Shown piece after piece: positions 7,048-62,201 of a stretch of DNA of 64,000 nt. Location: NCBI GenBank assembly GCA_016874005.1, contig VGVQ01000011.1:1-64000 (forward strand). The letters run 5' to 3'. The notes below the pieces were generated by a model that saw only the letters and a program-made list of their open reading frames with translations, did not search any database and was not told the DNA's origin. Source of the DNA: Gemmatimonadota bacterium. GTDB lineage: Bacteria > Gemmatimonadota > Gemmatimonadetes > Gemmatimonadales > GWC2-71-9. A program made the position numbers and the translations under genes. Every line of letters begins with the position of its first letter. Positions within the stretch are counted from its first letter, which is position 1.

Positions 7048-7941
7048 GTGCTCACGGCAGCCGATCGGCACCGGATTCCGTTTTTGGCCAGCGCCCTGAC
7101 GTTCGACGCGCTGTTGGCGGCGGTGCCGCTGTTTCTTCTCCTGCTCGCCGGGGCGGCGTGGCTGCTGGTCCACTTGGGCGGGGAGCCGCTCTCGACCGGC
7201 GGGCTGATCGAACGGTTCCTCCCGCCCCACGACGCCACCGGGGGCGCCGATCCCTTTCTGCTGGTCGAGGACCTGGTGGTGCGCCTCACCGAGGCTGCCC
7301 GGCAACTGTCGATCGTCGCCGTTCCCGTGTTTCTGTGGTTTGCCACCCGCGTCTTCGCCTCGGCCCGGACCGCGCTCGACGAGATCTATTCGCTTCACGG
7401 GACGCCACCCCGTCGTCACTTCGTGCTGGCGTATCTCACCGGCAAGCTGCGGGATCTGGGCATGGTGGGCGTGGCACTGTCACTCTTCGTGGCCAATACG
7501 GTGCTGACCGTGGGCCTCGCCCTGTTGGAGGCCCGCGGCCAGGCGGTGCGACCGGCCCTGGCCTTCTTCGTGACCAGCGGCGGCCGCCTGGCGGGACAAC
7601 TGTTGGCCTTTCTGTTCTTGGTTTCGCTGTTCGCGGCGGTGTACTACGGCGCCTCACGCCGACGTCCGCCGTGGCGCCACACGGTGATCGCGTCGCTGTT
7701 CGCGGCGGTGATGTTCGAAGCCGCCAAGCGGCTGTTCGGTCTCTACGTCCGCAGTACGGTGTCGTTGCAGCAGATGAACCCCGACGCCAACTTGGCCGCC
7801 GTGTTCGTGTTCGTGCTGTGGATGTACTACTCCTCGCTGGTCTTTCTGATCGGCGCGATCGTCGCCTCGGAGCAACGGGTGGTGCGGTTGGATGGACACG
7901 CCAGCGCTGGGGCTGGTACCTTTGCCGCCTCGCGGGAATGA
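7048..7941 (+). CDS. YihY/BrkB family inner-membrane protein
   Basis: An integral membrane protein of about 297 residues with roughly six hydrophobic segments. The conserved opening RIPFLASALTFDALLAAVPLFLLLLAGAAW places it in the YihY/BrkB (formerly RNase BN) family, whose function is not established. The GTG at 7048 is used as start, but family members usually have some 20 residues before this point. The frame stays open upstream to 6994, right after the ytxH stop, though with only CTG or ATC as possible starts, so the N-terminus is uncertain. The C-terminus ends 16 nt before the M14 peptidase start. Confidence 0.8.
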   Translation: MLTAADRHRIPFLASALTFDALLAAVPLFLLLLAGAAWLLVHLGGEPLSTGGLIERFLPPHDATGGADPFLLVEDLVVRLTEAARQLSIVAVPVFLWFATRVFASARTALDEIYSLHGTPPRRHFVLAYLTGKLRDLGMVGVALSLFVANTVLTVGLALLEARGQAVRPALAFFVTSGGRLAGQLLAFLFLVSLFAAVYYGASRRRPPWRHTVIASLFAAVMFEAAKRLFGLYVRSTVSLQQMNPDANLAAVFVFVLWMYYSSLVFLIGAIVASEQRVVRLDGHASAGAGTFAASRE

Positions 7942-7957
7942 ACTTCGTGGAGCAGCC

Positions 7958-10675
7958 ATGCGTTTTCTCGTCGCCTGCCTGATGCTCGGGGCCACCCCGA
8001 TCGTGGCCCAGCAACCGTTCGCCTGGTACAACCGGGGACCGTACCGGCCGGCCGTGCCGCGGCCCGATTCGCTCCTCGGGCATCCGATCGGCTCTCGCCA
8101 CACGATGTATCATCAGCAGCAACAGGTGTTCGATCGGATGATCGCGGCGGCGCCCGACCGGGTTCGCGCCGAGATCGCGGGCTACAGCGCCGAGGGAAAG
8201 GTGCTCCGGCTCTTGATCATCTCGGCGCCGGAGAACCTGGCTCGCTTGGATCAGATCCGGGCCGATCTGGCCCGGCTGGCGGACCCCCGGACGACGACCC
8301 CCGCGGCCGCGGCCGAGATTGCCGGTCGGATTCCGGCGGTCGCCATGCTGTCGCATTCGATTCACGGCAACGAGCCGGCCGGGTTCGAGTCGTCGATGAT
8401 GACGGCATACCAGCTCCTGGCCAGTGACGAACCGGCCACCCTCGAGATCCTTCGCAACGTGGTGACGATCATCAACCCCACTATGAATCCGGATGGACAC
8501 GAGCGGTTCGCGGCCTGGAGCAACTCGGCGGCGGTGGGGTCCGACGATCCGGCCGCGCTCGAGCAGACCGAGCCGTGGAGCGTCATGGGCCGCGGCAATC
8601 ACTATCGCTTCGACATGAACCGCGACGTCTTGGCCCAATCGCAATCGGAGACCAAAGCGATCGTGGCCGCGGTGATGCGGTGGCGGCCCCAGGTGTTCGT
8701 CGATCTCCACAGCACCACCTCGCAATATTTCTTCGCCCCCGCCGCCCTGCCGGTCAACGCCAACGTCCCGGCCAAGAGCCGGGAGTGGCTGGAGCGGTTC
8801 GGCCGGGGGAATGCCGCGGCCTTCGACCGTCATAGCTGGCAGTACTACGTTCGCGACGTGTTCGATCTGTTCTACGCCGGGTATTGGGATAGCTGGCCGT
8901 CGCTGAACGGGGCGACCGGGATGACTTTCGAAACCGACGGCGGCCCCGAACTGCGGCTTCGGAAGGGCGACGGAACGGTGATGACCTTCGCGGACGGGAT
9001 CGCCCACCACTGGGTCGCCTCGGTCGCGACGTTAGGCACGCTCGCGACCGGCCGGGAAGAGCGTCTCCTCGACTACTACGACTTCCGGGTCTCGGGAATG
9101 GCCGAGGTCGGGTCCCGCCCGTTTCGGCGGGTGCTGATCGCCCCGGGCGACGACCCCGAACGCGCCGTCCGGCTCGGGCGCCTCCTGGCGAGCCAGGGAA
9201 TCGAGGTGACCCGCACCACCGCGCCGGTGACCCTGACCGGGACCAACGACTACCTGACCAGAGCCCCGGTACCGGCCCCGGCCCGGGGGGCCCGGTCGGT
9301 CGCCGGCCCGGCGAAGACGTTTCCGGCCGGGACCCTGGTGGTCGATTTGGGGCAACCTCAGGCCAGGCTGGCCACCGCGTTGCTCGAGCCCTCGAGCGCG
9401 GTCGACAGTGCCTTTGCGGTCCGGCAGTACCAGCGGTTCGAGCGAAATCGCCGGCGGGGCGAGGCGGCGTCCAGGGAAGGCTACGAGTTCTACGATGTCA
9501 CTGCCTGGTCGTTGCCCTTGGCGTACGGGCTCGACGCCTATTGGACCGACAACACCGCGCCGGTGACGGGCGACAGGGTGGGATCGGACTGGCCGGCGCC
9601 GCAGGGCGGGACGTCGGGGCGGGCCCAGTCGGCCTACCTCTGGCAGCCGGGGACCGCCGCCGGGGCCCGGCTCGCGATGCTGCTGCTTCGCGAGGGTTTC
9701 GCCGTTGGCGCCGCGGCGGAGTCACTCCGCGCCGATGGGGCGAGCTACCCTCCAGGCACCTTCGTGGCCCGAATCCAACGCAACCCGGCCTCGCTTCACG
9801 ATCGAATCGGACAGCTGGCCGGGCGCCTCGGCGCCACGGTGACCGCGGTGCAGTCCGCCTTTCCGGACGTCGGCAAGGTAGGGGTGGGGAGCGAGGCCAT
9901 CGCCCACCTCCGTGCCCCCAAGGTGCTGATCGGTGCCGGCGACGGGGTGTCGCAGACTTCATTTGGGAGTGCCTGGTTCTATTTCGAGAAGGAACTGGAA
10001 GTGCCGGCGACGCCGATCGACCTGGGGGCGTTGGGCCGGGTCAACCTGGCCGACTACAGCGTGCTGGTGCTGCCGGACGGCTTCGGAACGATGGGCGATC
10101 GGCTCCAAGCGGTCGCCGAACCGCTCAAGCAATGGGTCCGTCGCGGCGGCGCGATCATCGCGTTCGGCGGGGCCGGCCAGGTCCTGGCCCGCAAGGAGAT
10201 CGGTCTGCTCACCGTCGGGGAAGTCGGGAAGACCGACACCGCCGACAAAAAGGCTCCGGCCGATACCACCAAGCCAGCCGTGTCATTACCGATCCTGTCC
10301 GCGACCGCGCCGAAGCCGACCCAGCCCGAGGGCGTTCCGGGACTGATCGCCCGGGCCACCCTCGATCAGACCCATTGGCTGACCTTTGGGTACCGTCGCC
10401 AGGAACTCCCGGTTCTGGTCAACGGCGACGTCTTCTTCACCCCGTCGCGACAGGGCGACAACCCGGTCATGCTAGTGGGCGACAATCTCGTTCTGGCCGG
10501 ATTCACCTGGCCTGGAAATACCGAGCGACTCCTCAAAGGCTCGGCCTGGGCGGTCGTCGAGAACGTTGGGGCCGGGACCGTGGTGCTCTTCGCCGAGGAC
10601 CCGCTGTTCAGGGCGTTCTGGCGTGGCACGGCGGGCCTCTTCAACAACGCCGTGCTCTACGGCCCGGGGAGGTAG
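7958..10675 (+). CDS. Secreted M14-family zinc carboxypeptidase-like protein
   Basis: A 905-residue exported metallopeptidase. A signal peptide ending near VAQQ (residues 1-18) is followed by the M14 catalytic domain: zinc ligands His136 and Glu139 in HSIHGNEPAG, NPDG at 177-180, substrate-binding Asn-Arg at 221-222, the third zinc ligand His251 in DLHSTT, and a catalytic glutamate near 325 in TFETDGG. The C-terminal half includes a stretch from about 680 that reads like a class I glutamine-amidotransferase fold (VLVLPDGFGTM... GGAIIAFGG), a known accessory to long M14 proteins. It probably degrades peptides in the periplasm or outside the cell. The start at 7958 has a weak GTGGAG ribosome site and gives a clean signal sequence. 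Confidence 0.88.
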   Translation: MRFLVACLMLGATPIVAQQPFAWYNRGPYRPAVPRPDSLLGHPIGSRHTMYHQQQQVFDRMIAAAPDRVRAEIAGYSAEGKVLRLLIISAPENLARLDQIRADLARLADPRTTTPAAAAEIAGRIPAVAMLSHSIHGNEPAGFESSMMTAYQLLASDEPATLEILRNVVTIINPTMNPDGHERFAAWSNSAAVGSDDPAALEQTEPWSVMGRGNHYRFDMNRDVLAQSQSETKAIVAAVMRWRPQVFVDLHSTTSQYFFAPAALPVNANVPAKSREWLERFGRGNAAAFDRHSWQYYVRDVFDLFYAGYWDSWPSLNGATGMTFETDGGPELRLRKGDGTVMTFADGIAHHWVASVATLGTLATGREERLLDYYDFRVSGMAEVGSRPFRRVLIAPGDDPERAVRLGRLLASQGIEVTRTTAPVTLTGTNDYLTRAPVPAPARGARSVAGPAKTFPAGTLVVDLGQPQARLATALLEPSSAVDSAFAVRQYQRFERNRRRGEAASREGYEFYDVTAWSLPLAYGLDAYWTDNTAPVTGDRVGSDWPAPQGGTSGRAQSAYLWQPGTAAGARLAMLLLREGFAVGAAAESLRADGASYPPGTFVARIQRNPASLHDRIGQLAGRLGATVTAVQSAFPDVGKVGVGSEAIAHLRAPKVLIGAGDGVSQTSFGSAWFYFEKELEVPATPIDLGALGRVNLADYSVLVLPDGFGTMGDRLQAVAEPLKQWVRRGGAIIAFGGAGQVLARKEIGLLTVGEVGKTDTADKKAPADTTKPAVSLPILSATAPKPTQPEGVPGLIARATLDQTHWLTFGYRRQELPVLVNGDVFFTPSRQGDNPVMLVGDNLVLAGFTWPGNTERLLKGSAWAVVENVGAGTVVLFAEDPLFRAFWRGTAGLFNNAVLYGPGR

Positions 10676-56065: not shown

Positions 56066-56398
56066 GTGAAGCATCAACCGCGCCAGGGACGAGCACGCGT
56101 GATTCGATCGATCTTCGCTGGTGGATCCAGCCGAGTGGTCCGGTACCGTCAGGCACCGGCCGTTCTCAGCGTCGACCATGGACAAAAGACGGTGCTGCTC
56201 GATCCGAATTCCGAGCAGTTCTATGCGCTCGACGGCGCCGCCCAACGGATCTGGTCGCTGCTGGAGGCGCCCCGGGCGGCGGAGGAGATCGTCGCCTCGT
56301 TGCGGGAGGCGTACCCGGTGTCCGCCGATGAACTTGCCGGCGATGTCACCGCATTCCTCGACGAAATGACCCAGCTGCGGCTGGTCGAGGCCAAATGA
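56066..56398 (+). CDS. Lasso peptide B1: PqqD-like leader-binding protein (RRE)
   Basis: The 110-residue protein carries the PqqD-like RiPP recognition element that grips the precursor leader and brings it to the leader peptidase. The domain starts near residue 30 (APAVLSVDHGQKTVLLDPNSEQFYALDGAAQRIWSLLEAP) and ends in the winged-helix part (ADELAGDVTAFLDEMTQLRLVE). This is a stand-alone B1, as in actinobacterial-type clusters. The GTG at 56066 has GAAGG 5 nt upstream. A second GTG at 56099 would give 99 residues. Its stop overlaps the B2 start by 4 nt (ATGA). It is the first gene of the four-gene operon. Confidence 0.9.
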   Translation: MKHQPRQGRARVIRSIFAGGSSRVVRYRQAPAVLSVDHGQKTVLLDPNSEQFYALDGAAQRIWSLLEAPRAAEEIVASLREAYPVSADELAGDVTAFLDEMTQLRLVEAK

Positions 56399-56778
56399 GG
56401 CCCGCCTCGCCGCTGTGGTGCCTCATGGTCCTCGCCGCGGTGCGGACCTCGCTCAAGGCGGCGGGGTTCCGGCGGACGATCCGGTGGGCGCAACGACTTG
56501 CTCCGGCGCCGCATCCCGAGGCCCGCCGAGAGTTGGTCGAGGCCCAGGCGCGCGCCGTGGCCGTGGCGGCCGCCTTCTTCCCCGGGCGAGCCATCTGCCT
56601 GGAGCAGTCGATCGCGCTCTACCTCGTGCTCCGTCGCCGGCGGGTCCCCGCCGTTCTTCGGATCGGCGTCCAGCCCTATCCGTTCGCCGCCCATGCGTGG
56701 GTCGAACTGGACGGCCAGCCGATCTACGAGAACGAAGACGATCTCGCCAAGTTCGTGGCCTTCCCCGGTCTCGCCTGA
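56395..56778 (+). CDS. Lasso peptide B2: transglutaminase-like leader peptidase
   Basis: The 127-residue cysteine protease is the stand-alone catalytic half of lasso protein B; it cuts the leader just before the core glycine. The catalytic cysteine is Cys68 in AICLEQSIALYLVLR, the histidine is His100 in FAAHAWVEL, and an acidic residue follows at 106. The N-terminal helices (residues 1-60) are typical of B2. ATG 56395 overlaps B1 by 4 nt, and its TGA shares one base with the ATG of C, so all three are translationally coupled. Confidence 0.9.
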   Translation: MRPASPLWCLMVLAAVRTSLKAAGFRRTIRWAQRLAPAPHPEARRELVEAQARAVAVAAAFFPGRAICLEQSIALYLVLRRRRVPAVLRIGVQPYPFAAHAWVELDGQPIYENEDDLAKFVAFPGLA

Positions 56779-58631
56779 TGAACCCGTTCCTGGTGGTCGT
56801 CGATCTCGACGGCGGATCGCTCGGACTCGACGCCCTGCAGCCCGGCCTCCCGGCGCTGTCGCAGAGCGACGGGCGAGTAGAGGTCCTCTGGAACGAATCC
56901 TGGGCCGCGGGGTGGGTGCCTTCGGCGACCTTCGAACGGCCGGGGTTCGTCTCCCAGCATGGGATCTTCGCGGTGGGCAACGTTCGGCTCTCGGGGCGAC
57001 CGAAGGACGGAGCGCACCCCACGGCCGACCTGGTGCACCTGATCAACGAGTACCGCCGAGTCGGGCCGATGGCCGTCCGCGAGCTGATCGGCGACTTCAG
57101 CTTCGTGCTCTGGGATAGTCACAACCGCCAGGTTCTGGCCGGTCGCGACGCGCTCGGGGTAAAGACCCTGTTCTGGCAACAGCGGGGACGCCGCCTGTAT
57201 CTCTCCTCCCACCTCGACTGCCTCGAAGGCGCGGCCTACGATGGGGAGTTCATCGGGCACTTCCTGGTGGGCCTCCCCCACGCCACCGACCGCACCATCT
57301 ACGCCGATGTTCACCGGTTGCCGGCTGGCGCCATCCTCACTTGGAGCAAGAACCGGCTCGAGACCAGGAGGTTTTGGAGCCCCTCGGAGTTCATCGGCGT
57401 CGACCGGCGGATCGGGCTCCCCGACGCCGCGGCCGAGTTCCGGCGGTTGTTCGAGGAGGCCGTCGTGGCCCAGCTCGACGACCGGGTCCCGGCCTGGTCG
57501 CAGCTGTCGGGCGGCCTCGACTCGTCCGGGGTAGTCGGGGTCGCGTCGCGACTGGCCGATCGGGGGCAGGTGGCGCGGTTAGGCGGGACGGTGTCGGTGG
57601 TCGACTCACTCGGCGGTGGAGACGAGACCAAGTACTCCGACGCCGTCCTGGCCCGATACCCGTTGCCCAATGCCCAGCTGCTCGACTTCGGCGCCTGGCA
57701 GGCCGACGAGCAAGGACCGCCCCGCCAAGGCGAGCCGCGGATCTTCCTGCCGTTCTTCGCCCGGAGCCGGGCGATGAACGAGGCCGTCTTCGGCGGCGGG
57801 GGCCGAGTCCTCCTGAGCGGGTTCGGGTCGGACAATTACCTGGCCGGCCCCCACGGCTACCTGGCCGATTGGGTCCGCCAAGGCCGGCTCCTGGCCGCCG
57901 CCAAGCAGATCACCGACGTTGCGGTGGCGAGTCGGCGGTCGTTCTACCGAGTCGGCTTCGACAACGTGGTCCTCCCGCTCGTCCCGGCGTTTCTCAAGCG
58001 GCGGTGGCACGACGCCGCCGGCCAGCTGCCCCCGTGGATCGACGGCGGCTTTGCCCGCCGTCATGGCTTGATCGATCGCGCGGCTGGGATCGGCTTTCCG
58101 TCCGCTGGGTTGGGCGTGTTCGGCGATGCCCAGATGGTTGAGCTGGGGACGCTCGACCTGGCGCTCGAGCGCGGCATCTCGGAGGAAGGAATCGAGATGC
58201 GCTACCCGTTCCTCCATCGGCCGCTGGTCGAGTTCTGCTTGACCCTGCCGGCCACGCTCAAGATCGGGGCCGCTCGCAAGAAGCTGGTCATGCGTGAGGC
58301 CTTGTCGGATGTGCTCCCGCCGCTGGTCCGAGACCGCCCGGGGAAGGGGGGCATCGACGGGCGGATCGCCTGGTCACTGAGCCACGAGCGCGAGCTGCTG
58401 GGCCGATTGGTGGCGCAGAGCCGCCTGGCGGATCTGGGCTGCGTCGACGCCGGCCGGCTGGCAGCTGACCTCGCCCAGGCCCAAGCGGGCAACATCTGGT
58501 CGATCGGACCGCTCTTCGCCACCCTGGCGCTCGAAACCTGGCTGGCCGTTCGGGCCGGCCAGTATTCCGAATCTGTACCCGCAGGAGCCGCGGCAGGGGC
58601 CGCGGCCGAATCACACCAACCAAGGAGTTGA
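56778..58631 (+). CDS. Lasso peptide C: asparagine-synthetase-like macrolactam synthetase
   Basis: A 617-residue ATP-dependent cyclase. It activates an Asp or Glu side chain in the precursor core and joins it to the N-terminal glycine. The N-terminal glutaminase-like domain lacks the catalytic Cys2 (it begins MNPF) but keeps GDFSFVLWD (105-113) and GRDALGVKTLFW (122-133). The synthetase domain has the ATP loop SGGLDSS at 244-250. The loss of Cys2 fits lasso cyclases, which use no glutamine. It begins on the A of the B2 TGA and ends 2 nt before the precursor start. A true asparagine synthetase is unlikely given B1, B2 and the precursor beside it. Confidence 0.92.
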   Translation: MNPFLVVVDLDGGSLGLDALQPGLPALSQSDGRVEVLWNESWAAGWVPSATFERPGFVSQHGIFAVGNVRLSGRPKDGAHPTADLVHLINEYRRVGPMAVRELIGDFSFVLWDSHNRQVLAGRDALGVKTLFWQQRGRRLYLSSHLDCLEGAAYDGEFIGHFLVGLPHATDRTIYADVHRLPAGAILTWSKNRLETRRFWSPSEFIGVDRRIGLPDAAAEFRRLFEEAVVAQLDDRVPAWSQLSGGLDSSGVVGVASRLADRGQVARLGGTVSVVDSLGGGDETKYSDAVLARYPLPNAQLLDFGAWQADEQGPPRQGEPRIFLPFFARSRAMNEAVFGGGGRVLLSGFGSDNYLAGPHGYLADWVRQGRLLAAAKQITDVAVASRRSFYRVGFDNVVLPLVPAFLKRRWHDAAGQLPPWIDGGFARRHGLIDRAAGIGFPSAGLGVFGDAQMVELGTLDLALERGISEEGIEMRYPFLHRPLVEFCLTLPATLKIGAARKKLVMREALSDVLPPLVRDRPGKGGIDGRIAWSLSHERELLGRLVAQSRLADLGCVDAGRLAADLAQAQAGNIWSIGPLFATLALETWLAVRAGQYSESVPAGAAAGAAAESHQPRS

Positions 58632-58633
58632 TC

Positions 58634-58756
58634 ATGTCGAACTACACCAAGCCGACCGTGACCAAGATTGGCTCGATCGTGCAGAAGACCGAGGGTGGCT
58701 GGACCTGGCAGGACATCGAGGTCATGAGCAAGCGGGGCTGCGGCAGCGGCAACTAG
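58634..58756 (+). CDS. Lasso peptide A: precursor peptide (40 residues)
   Basis: The ATG at 58634 has AAGGAG (58622-58627) 6 nt upstream and begins 2 nt after the C gene stop. The leader obeys the RRE-binding rule at every position: Tyr4, Pro7, Val9 (the Leu/Val site), Gly13, Thr19 at position -2 and Gly21 as the first core residue. The predicted 20-residue core is GGWTWQDIEVMSKRGCGSGN. Gly1 can be joined to Asp7 (7-membered ring) or Glu9 (9-membered ring). Trp3 and Trp5 would lie in the ring. Met11, Lys13 and Arg14 are bulky enough to lock a threaded tail. The lone cysteine at core position 16 has no partner. The calculated mass after loss of one water is about 2148.95 Da (monoisotopic). The gene is shorter than usual gene-finding cut-offs. 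Confidence 0.88.
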   Translation: MSNYTKPTVTKIGSIVQKTEGGWTWQDIEVMSKRGCGSGN

Positions 58757-58778
58757 TCGCCGGCCAAGACCCAGTTCG

Positions 58779-58805
58779 GGCGGGCGGGCGCCAAACCCGC
58801 CCGCC
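58779..58805 (+). terminator. Perfect 10-bp GC hairpin after the lasso precursor
   Basis: GGCGGGCGGG (58779-58788) pairs with CCCGCCCGCC (58796-58805) around a 7-nt loop. It begins 22 nt after the precursor stop. The T-run is reduced to TT, so it may be a weak intrinsic terminator or a stabiliser of the precursor message. Confidence 0.5.
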
Positions 58806-58892
58806 TTGGCGCGCCCTCAACATTCCCACCGGCAAGCCGATGCCCTAGATTGAGTTACCAGCGTTGACACACCGGCTCCCCAAGGAGTCCTG

Positions 58893-61370
58893 TTGACCGA
58901 CCGCCGTAGGTTGTTGCCCGTCTGGTTCGTGCCTTGGATCCGCGGCGGCGGGTGGCTGGCTTTCGGTGCCGGCCTGAGCATCCTAACACTCACGATCCTT
59001 AGGCCCGGCTATGGCGGGCTCGCCGCCGTTCTCGTTCCGGGGTGGTCACTCGTTGCTGTCGTGTGGGCGGCGGCGGTCATTCGAGTGCGCAAGGGCGGAG
59101 CGGTTCGGCAAGCGGCTTTGGCAGCGCTCCTTGCCGTCGTGGCGTCGATGGGCATGGCCGTCGGGCTGTCGGGGGTCGGTCCGCCCCCAGCTTGGTTGCG
59201 CTGGCTGGCGATCGTTCACATGCCGTTGTTTGTGCTCAGCTTGCTCCTATGGCCGGCCCTCCGGCGGCCAAAGCAACAATGGCCCTATCTAATCATTGAC
59301 CTGTCCATTCTGGCCGTTGCGCTCGGGCTTCTAGTGTGGAACGAGTGGTACCGGCCTGACGAGCCGCCCGACGTAGAACAAGTCCTTACCGTTGCGGGGC
59401 AGGTTTCGCTCCTCCTTGGCGTAAACATAGCCGTCGTGAGGCGTCCCAGGGAACGCCACTTCGCGTCGTTCATGCTTCTGGTATGGATGTCGATTGCCGT
59501 GTTCAGCGCGAACACAGGCCTCGCGATCATGAACCCCGCGGAGAACGTCGCCGGTGCAATCGTCTCGATTGTGATGCCGACGGTTCTCCTCCTCGGCATC
59601 GCCTCCGCCGAAGCTCTCCGCGTTGAGCTCCGTTGGCCCTGGAAACGCACCGAAGGCGGCAGCCCAGTCCCTTGGATCGCGGTGCTGGCGATCACCTTCT
59701 TCGTCTTGAACCTGGTCTTCAACCAGAACGCCACTGGCGTCGGTCCCATCGTGCTCGGCGCCCTCGGCACCATGATCCTGCTGGTCATCCGCCAGGCCGT
59801 CACCGCCCGGCACAACGCCCGGCTCCAGGCCGAGCGGGCCCAACTCGAGGCGGACGCCCGGATCGCGGCGTTGGTCCGGCACACCTCCGACGTCATCCTC
59901 ATTACCGAGACCGATCTCAAAATCCGATTTGCTTCGCCTTCCGCAACGGCGTTGCTGGGCCAGGATCCGGAGGACGTCGTCGGCCGCGACATTCTCTCGT
60001 TGGTCGAACCGGATCTCCGCGAGGCCATCCAACTGATGGTGGCCGAACGCATCGCGGTGCCGGGGCAGAGCGCGGTGGCCAATTGGAAAATGCCGGGGCC
60101 CGGCGGGGACGTGCGCCGAGTCGAGGCGGTGGTCACCAACCTGGTCCATCAGCCGACCATCGGCGGCCTGGTGTTCACCCTGCGCGACCAGACCGAACGG
60201 GCCCTGCTCGAAGAACAGCTCAATCAGGCCCAGAAGATGGAGGCCATCGGACAGCTGGCCGGCGGGGTCGCTCACGACTTCAACAACCTCCTCACCACCA
60301 TCATGGGGCACAGCGAGGTCGGCCTCGAGATCCTCGAGCCCGGGCACCCCGTCCGGGACGACCTCGAGCAGGTGCTCAAGGCCTCCCAGCTCGCCGCCTC
60401 GCTCACCCGCCAATTGCTCGCCTTCAGCCGAAAACAGGTGGTCGAGCCGAAGGTGATCAACGTGAGCGGCACCCTGGCCGAAGTGGTCCGGTTGCTCAAG
60501 CGCCTGATCAAGGAGGACGTCACCACGGTGCTCGACGTGGCCTCCGATCTTGGCCACGTCAAGATGGACCCCTCGCAACTCGAGCAGGTCGTCCTCAACC
60601 TCGCGGTCAATGCTCGCGACGCGATGCCCGAGGGCGGCCGACTCACGATTCGGGCCCGCCGCCAGTTGGTCGAACGGCAGATCACCGACGCCGTCATTCC
60701 GGTCGATCCGGGCGAGTACCTGGTGATCGAAGTATCCGACACCGGCGTTGGGATGGATGACGCAACCCAGCAACGGATCTTCGAGCCGTTCTTCACCACC
60801 AAACCGGTGGGGCGCGGTACTGGCCTCGGTCTGGCCAGCGTCTACGGCATCGTCCGACAGAACAGTGGTGGTCTGGTCCTGGTGAGCCAACTCGGCCGGG
60901 GGACCACCTTCACCGTGTACCTCCCCCGGATCGAAGCGGAGCCGGAACAGGCGGCGGCCGCCCCGCGGCGCCGACCGGTTCGCGGCGAGGGCGCCACGAT
61001 CCTTCTGGTGGAAGACGAAACCGCCCTCCGGGAGATCGCCGAGAAGGTGCTGCGCCGGGAGGGCTACCGGGTCCTGGTCGCCAGCGACGGCGACGAAGCC
61101 CTCATGCTCGCGGCGGGATCGCCCCATCCGATCGACCTGGTCCTCACCGACGTCATCATGCCCGGCATGTCCGGCAGCCAGATGGTGGCCGAGATGCGCA
61201 AGCTCAAGCCGATCTCCCGGGTCCTCTATATGTCGGGCTACCCGGGAGAGGATCTCATCGGGCGGCTCGGGATCGACGACCGACTCCTCCGGAAGCCCTT
61301 CACGCCCTTCGTCCTGGTCGAGAACATTCGGGCCGTGTTCGAAGGCCGCGAGGCGCCCAGCAACCCGTAA
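58893..61370 (+). CDS. PAS-containing hybrid histidine kinase with N-terminal membrane sensor
   Basis: A 825-residue hybrid kinase. A polytopic sensor with about eight helices (residues 1-290) leads into a coiled linker, a PAS domain (about 325-435), HisKA with [18 protein letters not shown] (His near 460), HATPase (about 555-680; [22 protein letters not shown]) and a receiver with the phospho-accepting Asp near 752 ([11 protein letters not shown]). The start is TTG 58893, fixed by AAGGAG at 58881-58886. Codons for about residues 1-250 are unlike the rest: CTA, CTT, GTT, GTA and ATA are frequent there and rare after 59640. It follows the lasso operon and could sense a related signal, but no proof exists in the sequence. 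Confidence 0.9.
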
Positions 61371-61373
61371 ACC

Positions 61374-62201
61374 GTGGATCTCGAGCGGTATTTCGAACGA
61401 ATCGGCTATCGCGGTACCCCGAGCGGGAACCTCGAGACCCTCACCGCGATCCATCGCGCCCACCTCCTCGCCATCCCCTACGAGAACCTCGACATCCACC
61501 TCGGGCGGCGACTGGTGCTGGACCAGGACAGGAGCTATCAGAAGCTCGTGGTCGAGCGTCGAGGCGGCTGGTGCTACGAGATGAACGGCCTCTTCGCCGC
61601 GGTGCTGGAGCGACTCGGCTTTCGGGTCACCAAGGCCTGGGGGACGGTGGGCCGAGCCAGCCGGGGCGAGGCGGTCGAGGGCAATCACCTGGTCTTGCTG
61701 GTCGATCTCGATCGGCGATACCTCGCCGACGTGGGCTTCGGCGATGGGTCGATCGATCCGCTCCCTCTCGAAGTCGGCGGCTATCGGACCGCCGGCTTCG
61801 AGGTCGCCATCGGCCGGGAAGGCGATCGCTGGGTGTTTCGGAACCACCAGTATGGGGCCGCGGCGGAGTTCGATTTCACCGAGGCGCCTCGGGTACTCGC
61901 CGACTTCCGGCCCCGGTCGGACGCGCTCCAGACCGAGCCCGATTCGCCCTTCGTCCAGAAAACCGTGGTCCAGCGGCACCGGCCGGAGGGCATCGTCACC
62001 CTCCGCGGGGCGGTCCGGTCGTTGGTCTCGCCGGGCGGGATCGAGCGCCGCACGTTGAAAGATCCAGTAGATTTTCAGCAGACCCTGGCGACCGATTTCG
62101 GGCTCGATCTCGGCGACCAGACCGCCCGGCTGTGGGCAATCATCGAGGAGCGACACCGCCAATGGCTCGCCGAATCCCCGGAGCAACCGCCGCGCTGCTG
62201 A
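61374..62201 (+). CDS. Arylamine N-acetyltransferase
   Basis: A 275-residue NAT-family acyltransferase that moves an acetyl group from acetyl-CoA to an amine. The triad is visible: Cys67 in RRGGWCYEMN, His105 in EGNHLVLL and Asp119 in LADVGFG. The opening YFERIGYRGTPSGNLETLTAIHRAHLLAIPYENLD is standard. GTG 61374 follows the kinase stop by 3 nt. Relatives also act in natural-product assembly (amide synthases), which is worth keeping in mind beside a RiPP operon, though simple detoxification is equally likely. Confidence 0.92.
   Translation: MDLERYFERIGYRGTPSGNLETLTAIHRAHLLAIPYENLDIHLGRRLVLDQDRSYQKLVVERRGGWCYEMNGLFAAVLERLGFRVTKAWGTVGRASRGEAVEGNHLVLLVDLDRRYLADVGFGDGSIDPLPLEVGGYRTAGFEVAIGREGDRWVFRNHQYGAAAEFDFTEAPRVLADFRPRSDALQTEPDSPFVQKTVVQRHRPEGIVTLRGAVRSLVSPGGIERRTLKDPVDFQQTLATDFGLDLGDQTARLWAIIEERHRQWLAESPEQPPRC

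Follow-up and report, generated by a model that had tools for sequence, protein, structure and literature searches.

The window, by which we mean the whole 64,000-nt stretch of Gemmatimonadota DNA that was analysed, carries a gene cluster that very probably makes a class II-type lasso peptide with a nine-residue ring, in which Asp7 and Cys16 would be species-specific residues and next to which a sensor kinase would sense the peptide or control its production. The core was originally flagged for its chemistry, namely two possible ring acceptors and an odd cysteine. This chemistry can largely be read as species-specific variation on a nine-ring family, and the linkage to the kinase is a more interesting feature than the quirks at positions 7 and 16.

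The precursor gene and its biosynthetic partners

The biosynthetic part of the cluster consists of the following features:
56066-56398 (+): B1 protein, a PqqD-like, leader-binding RiPP recognition element (Pfam PF05402, 1.3e-16)
56395-56778 (+): B2 leader peptidase, transglutaminase-like (NF033537, 95.9 bits, 2.3e-27, cut-off 33; PF13471, 1.1e-26)
56778-58631 (+): C protein, an asparagine-synthase-like lasso cyclase (PF00733, 3.5e-32)
58634-58693 (+): lasso precursor leader, MSNYTKPTVTKIGSIVQKTE, with a YxxP motif and Thr at -2 (profile match and homologue comparison)
58694-58753 (+): lasso core, GGWTWQDIEVMSKRGCGSGN, precursor residues 21-40 (five-member comparison)

The precursor ORF (58634-58756, plus strand) encodes 40 amino acids. 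Its start, preceded by AAGGAG, lies 2 nt past the cyclase stop codon; given this spacing, this AAGGAG and homologues in four other genomes, the ORF is not a chance one. The codons from 58694 to 58756 on the plus strand are GGT GGC TGG ACC TGG CAG GAC ATC GAG GTC ATG AGC AAG CGG GGC TGC GGC AGC GGC AAC TAG, and re-reading their translation showed that the sequence, coordinates and residue counts of the original prediction are correct. As for the leader, its match to the NCBIfam model lasso_leader_L3 (NF033521; E=0.0066, 16.4 bits, cut-off 19) is weak on its own. The YxxP-type pattern and the Thr at -2 that belong to a class II lasso precursor are, however, present (YTKPTVTKIG...KTE/GG, the slash marking cleavage), and all five known precursors share the leader pattern YxKP..TK.G and an invariant TE/GG cleavage site. 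A core start at Gly21, as had been proposed, is thus supported by Thr at -2, Glu at -1, Gly1 and Gly2, all invariant in the five homologues. We also considered a start at Gly22, which would place the Thr at -3, and rejected it given the invariant TE/GG.

The cluster contains all the biosynthetic proteins by which a class II lasso is recognised, i.e., a recognition element (B1), a B2 protease and an asparagine-synthase-like cyclase, in the tightly coupled order B1-B2-C-A, with the precursor last and with the B1 and B2 genes overlapping by 4 nt. B1 matches the NCBIfam lasso PqqD models at 6e-11, under their cut-offs, and the best NCBIfam match of the cyclase, lass_lactam_cya (4.6e-57), is likewise under its cut-off. 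Alignment with homologues revealed that the Cys and His of B2 are kept and that the SGGLDSS ATP motif of the cyclase is intact. We thus envisage a pathway in which B1 would bind the YxxP leader, B2 would cut after Thr19-Glu20 and the cyclase would join the amine of Gly1 to the side chain of Glu9. The tail would thread the resulting nine-residue ring and would likely be locked sterically by the conserved K-R segment, above all by Arg14.

Among named relatives, Gemmatimonadetes MAGs are the nearest, and no second lasso B2 locus was found elsewhere in the 3.9-Mb genome. The cluster is flanked upstream by genes of the acyl-CoA synthetase and enoyl-CoA hydratase types and downstream by a histidine kinase and an N-acetyltransferase; no gene adjoining it was recognised as an exporter, isopeptidase or TonB receptor. 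About 24 kb upstream lies a group of ORFs that read like MacB-type ABC permeases and are not tied to the cluster. The arylamine N-acetyltransferase-type gene (61374-62201 of the window; PF00797, 1.9e-53) overlaps the start of an ORF that, by reading of its sequence only, we named a CocE-like hydrolase. Along the available extent of the contigs, the sister loci contain no match to these two genes 3' of the kinase, which we therefore did not regard as tailoring enzymes. Other Gemmatimonadota loci that bear B2 have quite different candidate precursors (L058 9389-9601, L061 2206-2325, L059 5209-5388 and L057 2019-2429); one example is MTNKQYFSPVVVNLGGASSLTL/GVLSGGIEPNAKRPA, which likely has an 8-residue ring, and at some of these loci Ser is the candidate first core residue.

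Ring size and residues of the core

Four codons of the core, for which a Gly1-Glu9 macrolactam is predicted, are discussed below:
58712-58714 (+): Asp7
58718-58720 (+): Glu9
58733-58735 (+): Arg14
58739-58741 (+): Cys16

The core contains Trp3, Trp5, Asp7 and Glu9, as originally noted, and a single cysteine, Cys16. Homologous precursors are found in four other genomes; three belong to the same genus as the window species, the fourth to a different genus within the family. Their cores are GGWNWQVIEVMSRRGKSEN (the nearest relative), GGYKFEVNELMSKRGAFGS, GGLQWVVFELMGKRGGIGG and GGFKAEIMEMFSLRAAN. We searched for further members in a phylum sample of 395 genomes, in 288 genomes of the order, in viral contigs and in plasmids, and none was found in these sets past the five. 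A weak A1 match in genome G012 (L014) overlies an ATP synthase alpha-type gene and was dismissed as chance. The sequence search of the core against the PDB yielded no match.

Within the five cores, Gly1, Gly2, Glu9 and Arg14 are invariant and no other residue is, a conservation that should be read as reflecting in part shared ancestry, with only five members known, all from one family and mostly from one genus. Positions 3 to 8 all vary, and position 7 is D/V/V/V/I. In the nearest relative, codon 7 is GTC (Val), one base apart from the GAC (Asp) of the window. Two of the four relatives have Glu at position 6; to our knowledge, there is no lasso peptide with a six-residue ring. The two Trp residues had been singled out as striking and both are indeed present, while the family as a whole displays just a loose aromatic trend at these positions (W/W/Y/L/F at position 3 and W/W/F/W/A at position 5). 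Lys or Arg is found at position 13 in four of the five members, ahead of the invariant Arg14, and Arg14 itself, five residues past the ring, is a plausible plug and would be a sensible steric lock for a nine-residue ring.

The original prediction held that the ring could be either 7- or 9-membered. An equal standing of the two options is not supported, as Glu9 is invariant in all five members (together with Gly1, which offers the free amine expected of a class II lasso), while the relatives have Val, Val, Val and Ile at position 7. A lasso cyclase requires an acceptor acid, and known ring sizes are seven to nine; the four relatives can, therefore, use only Glu9 within this range. The window cyclase belongs to the same family as theirs. 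In a review, replacing a single residue is described as usually tolerated unless that residue is the acceptor acid, and shifting the ring size by one residue as lowering production significantly (PMC13352647). Together, the invariant Glu9, the variable position 7, the shared cyclase family and the reviewed behavior of the acceptor acid favor the nine-residue ring, and we infer that the macrolactam almost certainly joins Gly1 and Glu9. Asp7 would then very likely be a species-specific residue that a single base change has put in place of a hydrophobic ring residue, and would not define the fold. The seemingly ambiguous acceptor is thus largely settled by a handful of relatives, before any chemistry.

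Seven-residue rings do exist, with the xanthomonins as an example. Asp7 could, in principle, serve as the acceptor in the window species alone. Rings of this size are mentioned in a Stenotrophomonas genome announcement (PMC4675943), one enzyme set yields both 8- and 9-residue rings in the caulosegnins (PMC13352647), and the window cyclase is only about 50% identical to those of the relatives. A seven-residue-ring family should, however, conserve an acid at position 7, which is never acidic in the other four members, and those of their cyclases that have been sequenced are homologous and intact. Moreover, Glu9 is retained in the window core, and if the ring closed at Asp7 there would be nothing to maintain the conserved spacing between Glu9 and Arg14. 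We consider such closure highly improbable. As the sole Cys of the core, Cys16 cannot form an internal disulfide, just as was predicted and as a class II assignment entails. It was further suggested that it may dimerise or be modified and, indeed, this residue would be exposed in the tail just past the putative plug, and lasso disulfides are judged to be seemingly spontaneous (review PMC9266682). Position 16 is, however, C/K/A/G/A in the five members, so that Cys is absent from all four relatives, and the immediate cluster showed no recognisable oxidoreductase or modifying enzyme. A functional Cys16, whether as an intermolecular disulfide dimer or modified, is thus improbable, and a designed site for either is unlikely. 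Our preferred reading is that Cys16 is very likely a species-specific tail residue that does not define the fold, and that it is probably a free or adventitiously oxidised thiol, or one that oxidises or dimerises spontaneously outside the cell. As the codon is found in one genome only, it may also be a sequencing or assembly error. The literature searched held no characterised precedent for a lasso peptide with a single Cys.

The sensor kinase downstream

The region 3' of the precursor includes the following features:
58778-58806 (+): GC-rich hairpin after the precursor stop, a possible transcript end (RNA fold, 11-bp stem)
58846-58851 (+): TAGATT, putative -10 hexamer of a promoter belonging to the kinase gene (each of the five intergenic regions between precursor and kinase holds a single copy)
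58893-61370 (+): hybrid histidine kinase of 825 codons, with a sensor of about ten transmembrane helices, then PAS, HisKA, HATPase_c and REC (Pfam domains, hydropathy, model)

TAGATT is rare in the 64-kb window, where the two strands together hold only 5 copies, and the kinase probably has its own promoter. The whole 101-nt stretch with the hairpin has a z of only -1.3 relative to shuffles. With a hairpin and a putative promoter between the genes, the precursor and the kinase are probably not on one transcript.

The 320 N-terminal residues of the kinase are predicted to form ten helices with short loops, both by hydropathy and in an AlphaFold2 model (mean pLDDT of 77). This sensor domain belongs to no Pfam family, and comparing its model to PDB folds revealed no match at E<=0.001, but only generic membrane-helix bundles. 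No DNA-binding regulator was recognised beside the kinase. The kinase gene lies directly 3' of the precursor at all five family loci (the window, L052, L053, L054 and L055), which are related by descent and should thus not be considered five independent events. In the order (288 genomes), the sensor domain has strong matches (430-480 bits) in just the five lasso-bearing genomes, with the match in G002 in two fragments; the next-best match scores 82 bits and no other genome exceeds this. At 15 other B2-bearing loci of the family, no related kinase was found within the stretch examined. In G002, the kinase gene is split near codon 182 by an IS3-type element (L055 5487-9348, with an IS3-type integrase at 7822-8730), while the lasso genes look intact. 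As read from its sequence, this genome is a natural kinase knock-out, and the kinase would not be strictly required in that strain.

From this gene order and co-occurrence we infer that the cluster is very likely tied in evolution to the downstream multi-transmembrane kinase, and that this kinase most likely either senses the peptide or governs its production. An unrelated neighbour retained through synteny within the genus could produce a similar picture, given that one genus accounts for four of the five loci, that G002 also has the upstream amidohydrolase and that the kinase apparently has a promoter of its own. Nonetheless, G006, which is from another genus, has different flanks and the same B1-B2-C-A-kinase order, the presence and absence of kinase and precursor match exactly over the 288 genomes, and G004 and G005, which are of the same genus, have neither precursor nor kinase. 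Synteny is, therefore, an unlikely explanation. It is quite possible, on the other hand, that the kinase regulates lasso production on another signal, or gives immunity, without binding the peptide: actinobacterial lasso clusters can include regulators (sviceucin sviG/R1/R2, PMC9266682), and the sensor does not belong to any family whose ligand is known. More tentatively, the lasso peptide may be the dedicated signal (autoinducer) of the co-inherited ten-helix hybrid kinase, in a quorum- or self-sensing circuit. A natural role has been established for only a minority of lasso peptides. This small family is always found with one sensor kinase, and neither an exporter nor an isopeptidase adjoins its genes, which makes a signalling role directly testable.

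Comparison with known systems

In the literature searched, we found no characterised precedent for lasso peptides in Gemmatimonadota. Capistruin is a class II lasso peptide with a nine-residue ring. Nine-ring class II lassos, such as caulosegnins II and III, likewise have a Gly1 donor, an acid at position 9, no internal disulfide and B/C biosynthesis. Unlike these, the window cluster comes from Gemmatimonadota, has a split B1/B2, the precursor last in the operon and a sensor kinase nearby instead of a transporter or isopeptidase, while its core has one unpaired Cys and no sequence similarity to solved structures.

Sviceucin and siamycin share with the window a lasso peptide linked to histidine kinases, a split B1/B2 and regulators in the cluster, and sviceucin and siamycin I inhibit the histidine kinases FsrC and VanS (PMC11872507). 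Those peptides are, however, two-disulfide class I lassos that inhibit foreign kinases, whereas the window kinase is the producer's own and co-inherited, with any contact being hypothetical. The peptide-pheromone receptor kinases of the AgrC/FsrC/ComD type have a multi-helix membrane sensor with short loops and stand beside a peptide gene. The window kinase differs from them in its approximately ten transmembrane helices, in its added PAS and REC domains, in having no recognised DNA-binding regulator beside it and in a sensor for which no Pfam family and no PDB fold match at E<=0.001 was found, but resembles them in having a multi-helix membrane sensor with short loops and in being co-inherited with the peptide gene that it adjoins.
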